From assembly GCA_025350625.1 (NCBI GenBank), contig JANXXL010000116.1, positions 27,157 to 91,156 on the forward strand: DNA of 64,000 nucleotides. Reading direction: 5' to 3'. Under the pieces are notes generated by a model. That model had not been told where the DNA came from. It ran no database searches and was given only the letters and a program-made list of their open reading frames with translations. The position numbers were made by a program, and so were the translations under genes. Each line of letters begins with the position of its first letter. Within the stretch, counting starts at the first letter, position 1. The stretch is from Bryobacterales bacterium. GTDB taxonomy: Bacteria > Acidobacteriota > Terriglobia > Bryobacterales > Bryobacteraceae. Shown here in pieces: positions 30,502 to 33,470 of this stretch.

Positions 30502-31266
30502 TTGGTAGACATTCACAGTCACGTGTTATACGGCATGGACGACGGCTCGAAAACGCTCGAGCAGTCGATAGAAATGCTGCAAATGGCGGCGGCGGCGGGG
30601 ACTACGGAGCTGGTGTGCACGCCACATGCGAATCGCGATTTCAAGTTCGAGCCGCTGGTGATTCGGGAGCGCTTGAAGGAGCTCGAAGAAGGCATCGCCG
30701 GTGCGGTGCGGCTTTATACGGGGTGCGATTTCCATTTGAGCTACGAGAATATTCAGGATGCGATTACGCATCCGCGCAAGTACACCATTAATCAGGATCG
30801 CTACCTGCTGGTGGAATTTTCCGAACTCATGGTGTTCCGCAATACCGGCGAGATTTTTGGGCGGCTGCAGGAGGCGGGAATGATGCCGATCATTACGCAT
30901 CCGGAGCGAAATCACCTCCTGCAAATGCGCCTGGAGGAGATTGCGCTGTGGGTCGAGGCCGGGGCGTACGTGCAGGTGACCGGGCAGAGCCTGCTCGGCG
31001 GCTTTGGAAAGAAGGCGGCGGAGTGCGCGCGCACGCTGCTCGACCGGCGTCTGGTGCACTTCATCGCGAGCGATGGGCATGACCTGAAGTACCGGCCTCC
31101 CACCATGAATGAAGCGCACGCCTGGCTCGTGAAGAACTACGGGCAAGGGGTGGCGGATGCGCTGTGCATCGACAATCCGCGCGCGACGCTCGACGGGCAT
31201 GCGGTGCATCTGCCGTATATGGAAATGGAGAATCGGGGGAAGAAATGGTATCAGATCTGGCGGTAA
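30502..31266 (+). CDS. cpsB: PHP-type protein-tyrosine phosphatase (CpsB/YwqE-like)
   Basis: I chose the TTG at 30502 because it gives the family N-terminus VDIHSHVLYGMDDGSK; a TTG two codons upstream is possible and no good ribosome site exists for either. Metal ligands of the PHP fold are seen: DIHSH, CTPHANR, the Glu in LVEFSE, THPERNH and ASDGHD. In CpsB/YwqE this domain dephosphorylates the Tyr tail of a BY-kinase, fitting the Wzc-like gene at 34390, though two modules lie between. Its last 111 bases are duplicated at 32164-32258. Confidence 0.88.
   Translation: MVDIHSHVLYGMDDGSKTLEQSIEMLQMAAAAGTTELVCTPHANRDFKFEPLVIRERLKELEEGIAGAVRLYTGCDFHLSYENIQDAITHPRKYTINQDRYLLVEFSELMVFRNTGEIFGRLQEAGMMPIITHPERNHLLQMRLEEIALWVEAGAYVQVTGQSLLGGFGKKAAECARTLLDRRLVHFIASDGHDLKYRPPTMNEAHAWLVKNYGQGVADALCIDNPRATLDGHAVHLPYMEMENRGKKWYQIWR
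31154..31264 (+). repeat. Direct repeat copy 1: 3' end of cpsB
   Basis: This stretch recurs at 32164-32258 with two C/T differences in the shared part and two small deletions (about 13 and 3 bases) near its end. The two copies are 1,010 bp apart, start to start. Confidence 0.9.
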
Positions 31267-31286
31267 AGTAGACTAACGGGTAACTT

Positions 31287-31562
31287 ATGAAGCTTGCCTT
31301 CGAGCTTGAGCTTCCAGACGGCGCGGTGGACCAAATGGCCGAAGCTGAACTTGTACGTTCGGTCAAAGAACAAACCGTGCTAAAGCTTTACTCTGAAGAG
31401 CGGGTAACTACCGGCGAAGCGGCAGAGATGCTGGGGTTAACGCGGATCGAGTTCCTCGAACTCCTGGGGCGGAGCGGCGTCGGTTTTCAAGTGGAGATCG
31501 ACGTCGAAGACTTGCAGATGCTCCGGCGTTGGCGTGAGGATGGCGCCGAGGGCGGGCGGTGA
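31287..31562 (+). CDS. UPF0175-family antitoxin-like protein
   Basis: 91 residues with VKEQTVLKLYSEERVTTGEA and AEMLGLTRIEFLELLGRSGV, the UPF0175 helix-turn-helix that usually accompanies a DUF3368 PIN toxin. No such toxin follows. The N-terminal FELELPDGAVDQM strand and the C-terminal EIDVEDLQMLRRW are family features. Start 20 bases after cpsB, with a weak ribosome site. Part of the cassette flanked by cpsB end copies. Confidence 0.75.
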   Translation: MKLAFELELPDGAVDQMAEAELVRSVKEQTVLKLYSEERVTTGEAAEMLGLTRIEFLELLGRSGVGFQVEIDVEDLQMLRRWREDGAEGGR

Positions 31563-31705
31563 GTGCAGTTGTTTCCGACAGCAGCCATCACTTGCCCATC
31601 CTTTCTTCAACTTCCATCGTGGGGCCGCTGGCCGAATGTTTTTCATACATTGGCTTCATTTTCTTGCCTAAACCGCCACCCATTTAGGACACCACTGCAT
31701 ACGCA
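31563..31705. other. Gap between UPF0175 and the next gene
   Basis: 143 bp with no gene, dyad or promoter I can support. Confidence 0.5.
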
Positions 31706-32137
31706 ATGAATCCAAGGCAAGAATCGGAAACACTCATGAATGCAATGCTGCCCCTTGCAGAAAAGATGCTGAGGCAGTATGGAGAGTTCTATCCGTACGG
31801 CGGCTATATGAAGGCGGACGGAGCCATTGTGGAAGTGGGTGCAACCGTGCCCGATACAGATCGGCCAAAATCTAAAGATTTAATTTACATCTTGCGTAAT
31901 TCCCTTCAAGATGCCGCACAACGGAACGAGTGCAAGGTTGTTGCAATGGTATTCGATGTGACAGTGACGTTGCCGAATTCCAATCGCAAGAGCGATGCTA
32001 TTCAGGTTTCTGTTGAACATTCAAATCACTATTCTGTGGAAGTCTTTTTCCCGTACCAACTCATTGAGAACGATTTGGTTTATGGAGAGACATTTGCTCA
32101 ATCGGGCAAGATTGAGGTCTTTGGCAGAGCTAGTTAA
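31706..32137 (+). CDS. Conserved hypothetical protein in the cassette, low GC
   Basis: 143 residues starting MNPRQESETLMNAMLPLAEK with a helical N-terminus, then EFYPYGGYMKADGAIVEVGA, an alternation of strands, and NHYSVEVFFPYQLIENDLVY near the end. The MLPLAEKML...EFYPYGG-x-MK-x-DG pattern is seen in small proteins near mobile genes and possible immunity genes (recalled, not checked). Base composition is clearly less GC-rich than cpsB or nusG. No function assigned. Lies between the two copies of the cpsB 3' end. Confidence 0.6.
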   Translation: MNPRQESETLMNAMLPLAEKMLRQYGEFYPYGGYMKADGAIVEVGATVPDTDRPKSKDLIYILRNSLQDAAQRNECKVVAMVFDVTVTLPNSNRKSDAIQVSVEHSNHYSVEVFFPYQLIENDLVYGETFAQSGKIEVFGRAS

Positions 32138-32163
32138 GGAGCGTTTGGTCACACGTCACCGCC

Positions 32164-32258
32164 CGGATGCGCTGCGCATCGACAATCCGCGCGCGACGCT
32201 CGACGGGCATGCGGTGCATTTGCCGTATATGGAAGGAAGTGGTATCAGATCTGGCGGT
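32164..32258 (+). repeat. Direct repeat copy 2: truncated duplicate of the cpsB 3' end
   Basis: It matches 31154-31264. The cpsB reading frame (RIDNPRATLDGHAVHLPYME) is intact through most of the copy, then shifts because of the small deletions. No start or upstream cpsB portion accompanies it. It sits between the hypothetical gene and DUF433 copy 2 and marks a duplication boundary. Confidence 0.9.
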
Positions 32259-32294: not shown

Positions 32295-32531
32295 GTGACG
32301 GCAGAGCAATGGTCGCGGCTGGATCAAATCGTGTGGGTCGATCCCGGCCGCATGAGTGGGACTGTTTGTTTTCGCGGCACTCGCGTGCCCGTCGAAACGC
32401 TGATCGACCACATCGAGGGAAACGCGACGCTCGATCAGTTTCTCGCCGGGTTCCCGTCCGTAAGCCGTGAACAGGCCATTCAATTTATTGAGCTAGCCAA
32501 AGAATCGCTGCTCGCGTGCGTATCCTCTTAG
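32295..32531 (+). CDS. DUF433 antitoxin, second copy
   Basis: GTG start with AAGGTGAG close upstream. The sequence RLDQIVWVDPGRMSGTVCFR, then GTRVPVETLIDHIEGNATLD and FLAGFPSVSREQAIQFIELA fits DUF433. It differs strongly from the copy at 11295, so the two modules are not a recent duplication. It overlaps the reading frame of the DUF5615 toxin that begins at 32516. Confidence 0.85.
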   Translation: MTAEQWSRLDQIVWVDPGRMSGTVCFRGTRVPVETLIDHIEGNATLDQFLAGFPSVSREQAIQFIELAKESLLACVSS

Positions 32532-32847
32532 ACGAATGTGTTCACGCCGGCGTGCGTGTTGCATTCCTGGTCATTCTGTTTCGACCGTGAGTGAAGCTGG
32601 TTGGCGAAGCAGTAAAGACAACACTTTCCTGGGCCTTGCCGAACGCGAGTTCGACGTCTTCGTGACTATAGACCGCAAACTTGAACATCAAATCGACCTG
32701 CGCAGGTTCGCGCTGGCCTTTGTCATGGTTCGCGTGACCAGCAACACCCTCGCCGCGTATCTTCCGAGCTTTGATCGGCTGCGGCAAGCGGTGGAGACAG
32801 TGCGCAAGGGCGAAGTGATTCATCTGGATGCTCGCCCGCGCCATTAG
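32516..32847 (+). pseudogene. DUF5615 PIN-like toxin, frameshifted
   Basis: The GTG at 32516 starts MRILLDECVHAGVRVAF, the classical toxin N-terminus with the catalytic Asp, but this frame is lost after about 17 codons. The rest continues in another frame as PGHSVSTVSEAGW, FDVFVTIDRKLEHQIDL and ALAFVMVRVTSNTLAAY. Adding one C to TTCCTGG (about 32567) restores the exact family spacing. Likely a one-base deletion in a C run; a sequencing error is possible. As it stands the toxin is inactive while the antitoxin is intact. Confidence 0.8.
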
Positions 32848-32966: not shown

Positions 32967-33470
32967 ATGCGCGAGCTGTGCCCATGGTACGCACTTAGCG
33001 TGAAACATCAACATGAACGGGCGGTGCGATTGGCGCTTGAATTCAATGGGTTCGAGGCGCTGGCGCCCACCTATCGCGCGCGCCGGCGCTGGTCGGATCG
33101 GGTGAAGGAAGTAGACCTGCCGTTGTTTGCGGGATACGTGTTTTGCCGGTTTGCATTTTCTGAGCGGGTGCGGGTGATGGATGCACCTGGTGTGGCGAAA
33201 GTGGTCGAGTTTGGGGGCACTCCGGCGGAGGTTTCTGAGGCGGAGGTTGCGGCGATCCGGGCTGTGATGGATTCGAGGTTGCCGGTGCGTCCGTGGCCCT
33301 ATCTGAAGTTGGGGGACCGGGTGCGCGTGGAGCATGGACCGCTGCGAGGGCTTGAAGGCACCCTGCTGCGGGAAGTGGTGCGGGAGCGATGGCAATTGGT
33401 GATTGGCGTCGAGATGCTACAGCGGTCGCTCGCGGTGGAGTTGGAACCGGAAATGGTGGCGGCGGTATGA
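32967..33470 (+). CDS. NusG-like specialised antiterminator (UpxY/RfaH type)
   Basis: 167 residues: the NGN domain starts with PWYALSVKHQHERAVRLALE and has the FAGYVFCRF motif, and the KOW domain is GDRVRVEHGPLRGLEGTLL. Its place as first gene of an 18-gene exopolysaccharide operon is that of UpxY/LoaP/RfaH-type factors, which let RNA polymerase read through long operons. It overlaps the next gene by ATGA. Whether a leader RNA element (ops-like) is used could not be seen. Confidence 0.88.
   Translation: MRELCPWYALSVKHQHERAVRLALEFNGFEALAPTYRARRRWSDRVKEVDLPLFAGYVFCRFAFSERVRVMDAPGVAKVVEFGGTPAEVSEAEVAAIRAVMDSRLPVRPWPYLKLGDRVRVEHGPLRGLEGTLLREVVRERWQLVIGVEMLQRSLAVELEPEMVAAV

Follow-up and report, generated by a model that had tools for sequence, protein, structure and literature searches.

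The 3′ end of a cpsB/CapC-type gene is duplicated around a small, apparently broken cassette of toxin–antitoxin (TA) type in the 64,000-nucleotide stretch that we analysed (the window), the site is empty in related genomes, and direct repeats occur in excess around TA genes of the same bacterial family. TA genes likely insert by duplicating an extended target segment, without encoding a recombinase themselves.

The cpsB gene, the target of the duplication, is complete (30502–31266, plus strand; Pfam CpsB_CapC, E = 1.8e-53) and ends in copy 1 of the repeat (31154–31264, plus strand), which is its terminal coding part and extends one base into its stop codon. Copy 2 lies at 32164–32258 (plus strand) with a spacing of 1,010 bp, and alignment of the copies (E = 6e-29) reproduced the duplication with the two C/T differences and two deletions, here gaps of 13 and 3 bases, given in a preliminary description of this DNA. 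Composition and genome searches marked the 899 bp between them (31265–32163, plus strand) as inserted DNA with 50.7% GC, against 57.8% in the flanks. The locus has the layout of a long target duplication, with an insert between direct copies of target sequence of tens to hundreds of bp. This pair is the sole direct repeat in the window of at least 40 bp and at least 75% identity with copies no more than 5 kb apart, and a genome search with the 1,010-bp unit gave a single match in the window's own assembly, which is a draft (417 contigs, 5.54% contamination) and apparently a metagenome-assembled genome (MAG). In copy 2, 16 bases are missing relative to copy 1, a frame-breaking loss, and the first T/C difference turns a cysteine codon into an arginine codon. 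Because copy 1 and 15 of the 15 relatives displayed keep the cysteine, decay appears to have set in at copy 2, and copy 1 is the working cpsB end.

The right-hand neighbour of the locus in the window is a NusG/UpxY-type antiterminator gene (32967–33470, plus strand). In tblastn searches with the local proteins, nusG followed cpsB directly in 11 of 19 cpsB loci of the same genus (L004, L005, L006, L008, L009, L010, L011, L012, L016, L018 and L021, out of L003–L021), with the two alignments ending about 150–460 bp apart, and UPF0175, the orphan gene, DUF433 and DUF5615 had no tblastn match in these 11 loci. In the other eight, the closest relative (G003) among them, no nusG was found, nor in longer stretches of these loci. 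Across the 22 further genomes of the genus, the insert DNA had a match at one place only, over 98 bp at 69% inside the orphan gene in G012. Among 29 cpsB loci of relatives, none carried a repeated cpsB end (direct repeats of at least 50 bp and at least 75% identity), and the one locus with any direct repeat (L019) had it outside cpsB. A single-copy site in a related genome was thus found for the window case, the one case for which it was checked. Since the relatives show cpsB and nusG side by side without either insert, both the 1,010-bp unit and the DUF433–DUF5615 genes are, judged from these alignments, additions. The preliminary description had proposed an insertion at the cpsB 3′ end accompanied by duplication of that end, and the empty cpsB–nusG sites agree with it, as do the two comparisons it had suggested, of the unit beside cpsB in relatives and of the unit against other genomes. 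The order cpsB–DUF433–DUF5615–nusG, which it took as ancestral, can stand at best as an intermediate, and falls as the ancestor.

The first gene of the insert (31287–31562, plus strand) belongs to the UPF0175 antitoxin family by its Pfam match (E = 1.7e-15). A UPF0175 gene is as a rule one member of a pair, and UPF0175–DUF3368 toxin–antitoxin pairs are VapBC-like. In the window, a GTG start overlaps the UPF0175 stop by 4 bp and opens a frame that reads MSAVVSDSS and continues into unrelated sequence (31559–31687, plus strand), probably the remnant of a DUF3368 toxin start. We scanned 63 UPF0175 loci for such a start (7 of 70 were left out); a DUF3368-like opening (e.g. VVSDTSP) stood near the UPF0175 stop in 49 of them, 24 of which showed the 4-bp overlap, and at one locus (L213) the downstream gene has a confirmed Pfam match to DUF3368. 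No complete toxin gene was met downstream of UPF0175 in the window, where the DUF3368-like start alone remains. Because the overlap and VVSDSS are kept and unrelated sequence follows, the toxin has probably been lost except for a few codons. The window gene is therefore like other UPF0175–DUF3368 pairs in its coupled downstream start, but unlike them in that the toxin is missing past its first codons and an orphan gene stands in its place. The toxin remnant is followed, ahead of the orphan gene, by a 31-aa open frame on the minus strand (MGGGLGKKMKPMYEK..., 31588–31683), perhaps the tail of another carried-in gene. The second insert includes a DUF433 antitoxin-type gene (32295–32531, plus strand; Pfam E = 3e-14), which appears to form a second pair with a DUF5615 toxin-type gene (32516–32847, plus strand; Pfam E = 0.022, weak and below the cut-off) that seems split over two frames. 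Both toxin genes of the cpsB locus look broken, and both antitoxin genes are open.

The orphan gene (31706–32137, plus strand) encodes 143 aa and belongs to a function-unassigned family with 368 homologues; searches of Pfam, NCBIfam, PADLOC and PHROGs assigned it to no family above the cut-off. The family is strongly conserved (as in the stretch GEFYPYGGYM), is spread over Acidobacteriota, Verrucomicrobiota and a few others, and was present in 11 of 257 genomes searched within the order. An AlphaFold2 model of the protein reached pLDDT 81, and a fold search of the PDB returned no match at E 0.001 or better. No attC-like pair of core sites, as for an integron cassette, was recognised by eye. 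Two verrucomicrobial relatives of the gene (L056 and L057) have repeats nearby. We compared 23 distinct orphan-gene loci (17, the window and L107–L111), and flanking repeats of at least 40 bp were present in three of the 22 testable ones (the window, L056 and L111); the orphan gene was therefore rejected as driver of the repeats, and TA genes were tested instead. The layout of L111 (also recorded as L048), from genome G203 of another genus, also led to this test. There, a distant, broken orphan-gene relative, a HicB gene and what we take to be a HicA-like gene (by eye) sit between 127-bp repeats that are 93% alike and found only twice in the genome.

Direct flanking repeats, under a final rule of 40 bp, 80% identity, E 1e-6 and both copies within 1.5 kb, were found at 11 of 116 TA loci (7/70 UPF0175 and 4/46 testable HicA, out of 50 HicA given), a non-random set of best-scoring loci plus 40 UPF0175 and 20 HicA places hand-picked for contig room, three of these HicA places being from the window's own genome. 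The remaining 105 of the 116 had none. Control genes showed 0/59 (0/29 cpsB and 0/30 GNAT), and a background grid over 1.21 Mb showed direct repeats at 9 of 1,989 positions, arising from six recorded repeats (Fisher p = 0.009 for the comparison with the control genes and 1e-9 for that with the grid). Inverted flanking repeats occurred at 0/116 TA loci versus 2/1,989 grid positions. Two of the six grid repeats enclose TA genes themselves, both in L177, a control stretch with another TA locus elsewhere on its contig; the others are L178, L277 and the two that were inspected, L267 and L273, in which we recognised no TA gene. A looser test (E 1e-4) gave repeats at 8/30 UPF0175, 4/30 HicA and 0/29 cpsB loci, and another version gave 3/40 UPF0175 and 2/20 HicA over a higher background (grid at 3.5-kb spacing, 21/1,513 direct and 9 inverted); the counts differ between versions through different thresholds or flanks. 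A 2.1-kb duplication at L218 drops out under the final rule. Dispersed repeats were ruled out by genome search for L111 and the window only.

When the 11 positive TA loci were sorted by eye, after they had been seen, eight proved to be copies of neighbouring host sequence. Host 3′ ends were duplicated at L148 (M20 peptidase gene), L213 (amino-acid permease gene), L240 (912-aa gene) and L126, and convergent gene ends at L113. At the other three loci, the duplicated sequence is the junction preceding a Y-family polymerase gene (L127), intergenic DNA between divergent genes (L216) and the 5′ end of a competence gene (L242). Among the three non-host positives, the repeat is tRNA-like in L145 and a shared TA promoter region in L117 and L130. 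In L177, copies of the metH 3′ end (596 bp) enclose a PemK/MazF-type toxin gene, and copies of a 70-bp stretch close to the lnt 3′ end enclose a BrnA antitoxin gene. These two, the eight host-derived loci, the window and L111, whose repeat is located between genes, make up 12 cases, eight of them at gene 3′ ends. Left copies measured 64 to 595 bp and inserts 540 to 2,066 bp; the GC content of the insert was below that of the repeat in 12/12 and below that of the flanks in 11/12. The duplicated stretch had a different sequence in each case, and no common sequence was noticed by eye at the insert ends of the 12. The copies differed by about 3–16%, all pairs having diverged and none being identical. 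In cases other than the window, TA family matches were to DUF3368, HicA, PemK/MazF-type and BrnA; the window pair looks broken. The names imuA/imuB, ComEC and BrnT, the HicA-like gene of L111, HicB in L148 and the penicillin-binding protein in L328 are presumptive, having been given wholly or partly by motif. At L126 (14–2621), apparently three stacked TA modules, presumably MazF-like, UPF0175–DUF3368 and ParDE-like from their motifs, lie between 276-bp repeats.

We favour, with somewhat better than even confidence, the reading that the UPF0175 cassette, whose toxin has probably been lost, arrived as a linear fragment by an insertion that duplicated the cpsB end. The fragment was probably captured at a break whose ends were long and staggered, or through a template switch, and filling in the staggered ends would yield a long target duplication and an intact cpsB. 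As long as toxin and antitoxin both worked, excision of the insert by recombination of the two copies would have been punished, and the insertion was probably kept through this addiction. Later, after loss of the toxin, the orphan gene would have replaced it and the surplus cpsB end would have begun to decay. The same type of event would explain the other host-derived cases in the phylum. We infer three points: the origin of the repeat during insertion, its formation by a staggered break or a template switch, and its retention by addiction. The end-joining protein Ku was found in 7 of the 10 genomes with cases. Since it was not detected in the other three, which are draft genomes, Ku-dependent end joining was rejected as a required route and is unlikely to be the only one.

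The main and serious rival is homology-facilitated illegitimate recombination, in which a relative's cpsB with the cassette pairs on one side and a chance join forms inside the recipient cpsB, so that the copies are two alleles. One-sided homologous recombination of this kind yields an identical layout, and the 3–16% divergence of the 12 cases, without an identical pair, suits two alleles; such events have been described in bacteria (PMC3240628, in excerpt) and invoked for effector–immunity arrays (PMC5361080, in excerpt). Copy 2, with its changed cysteine and its frame-breaking loss, is nevertheless unlike a working allele, and cases between genes and at a 5′ end exist. Identical copies may have gone unseen because recent ones can escape short-read assemblies. 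We hold this explanation to be unlikely on balance, though a substantial contender.

Long duplication upon insertion also has to be set against readings to which we give little credence. Entry of the cassette between the arms of a plain tandem duplication of the cpsB end, formed earlier, is improbable, though conceivable for the window taken alone: a tandem duplication without TA genes does exist in the family, as the sole local repeat in 400 kb of G109, a genome of four contigs, but none of the 29 cpsB loci from relatives shows a repeated end, and the excess at TA genes would require TA entry into many unrelated duplications. That duplication, at 2357–3498 of L267, comprises what we take to be a surface-protein-like gene and the start of a yggU-like gene. 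The decayed mini-element of the preliminary description, left over from a site-specific integrative element able to restore the end of its target gene, would suit an insert at a gene 3′ end, and one TA locus does lie between tRNA-like repeats. Yet, as that description itself stated, no integrase is encoded among the ORFs of the unit; a constant attachment core is likewise lacking, since the 12 cases have 12 different repeats, target and repeat length vary up to 595 bp, and no insert ends are shared (by eye). Nothing points to such an element, and we regard it as highly improbable. The tRNA-like locus itself (L145, 950–2541, G162), a HicA locus between two 52-bp repeats that resemble the end of a tRNA-Pro gene (by eye), is possibly a classical tRNA-site element. 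An artefact of mixed strains in a metagenome, conceivable for a contaminated draft in many contigs, is hardly credible at all, as the two copies are not identical, the assembly matches the unit only once and similar cases were found in many unrelated assemblies.

Insertion of restriction–modification genes with long target duplication was reportedly the subject of Nobusato 2000 and Furuta 2010. Excerpts of the literature describe some restriction–modification systems as inserting with long, variable target duplications of the order of 100 bp and as appearing to be mobile elements themselves (PMC3874152); the same type of insertion is treated in excerpts of PMC3031569 and PMC1643837. Here, by comparison, the genes are TA genes, the hosts are Acidobacteriota, the site is a host gene 3′ end in 8/12 cases and the copies have already diverged. 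The cpsB locus is also like the effector–immunity arrays of Vibrio cholerae, in which toxin–immunity cargo is placed beside existing genes by a proposed one-sided illegitimate join, but the V. cholerae module displaces a gene (excerpt of PMC5361080), whereas target DNA is duplicated at cpsB. What we find is the long-target-duplication anatomy for TA genes in Acidobacteriota, known before for restriction–modification genes. No paper title was found that describes TA genes with long target duplications, or duplication or insertion of TA genes in Acidobacteria, which leaves unpublished status unproven. The long direct repeats of host DNA that surround TA modules visibly record the insertion step, hint at why such inserts would rarely hold non-addictive genes, and make insertion and retention both testable. 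More tentatively, and with doubt prevailing, TA modules across Acidobacteriota might be recombinase-free mobile elements. Inserts with long duplications could pop out through their repeats, only addictive cargo would survive as losers die, and selection would favour chromosomal TA genes as guards of the unstable insertions that carry them; the cpsB locus would then be an end stage, with broken toxins and a decaying repeat.

Beyond the family, a phylum sample of 30 UPF0175 loci, which had no control genes, gave direct flanking repeats at 6 of the 22 loci with full flanks and inverted ones at 0/22. Among the six, the repeat of L329 may represent paralogues, and those of L322, L338 and L344 look like dispersed repeats. 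A further locus, L328, has 417-bp copies and lies outside this count owing to a truncated flank. Two loci show clear host gene ends: at L334, which belongs to a different family of the phylum, a PP-loop gene has its final 54 bp, stop codon included, repeated, and at L340 the ccmF end is repeated.
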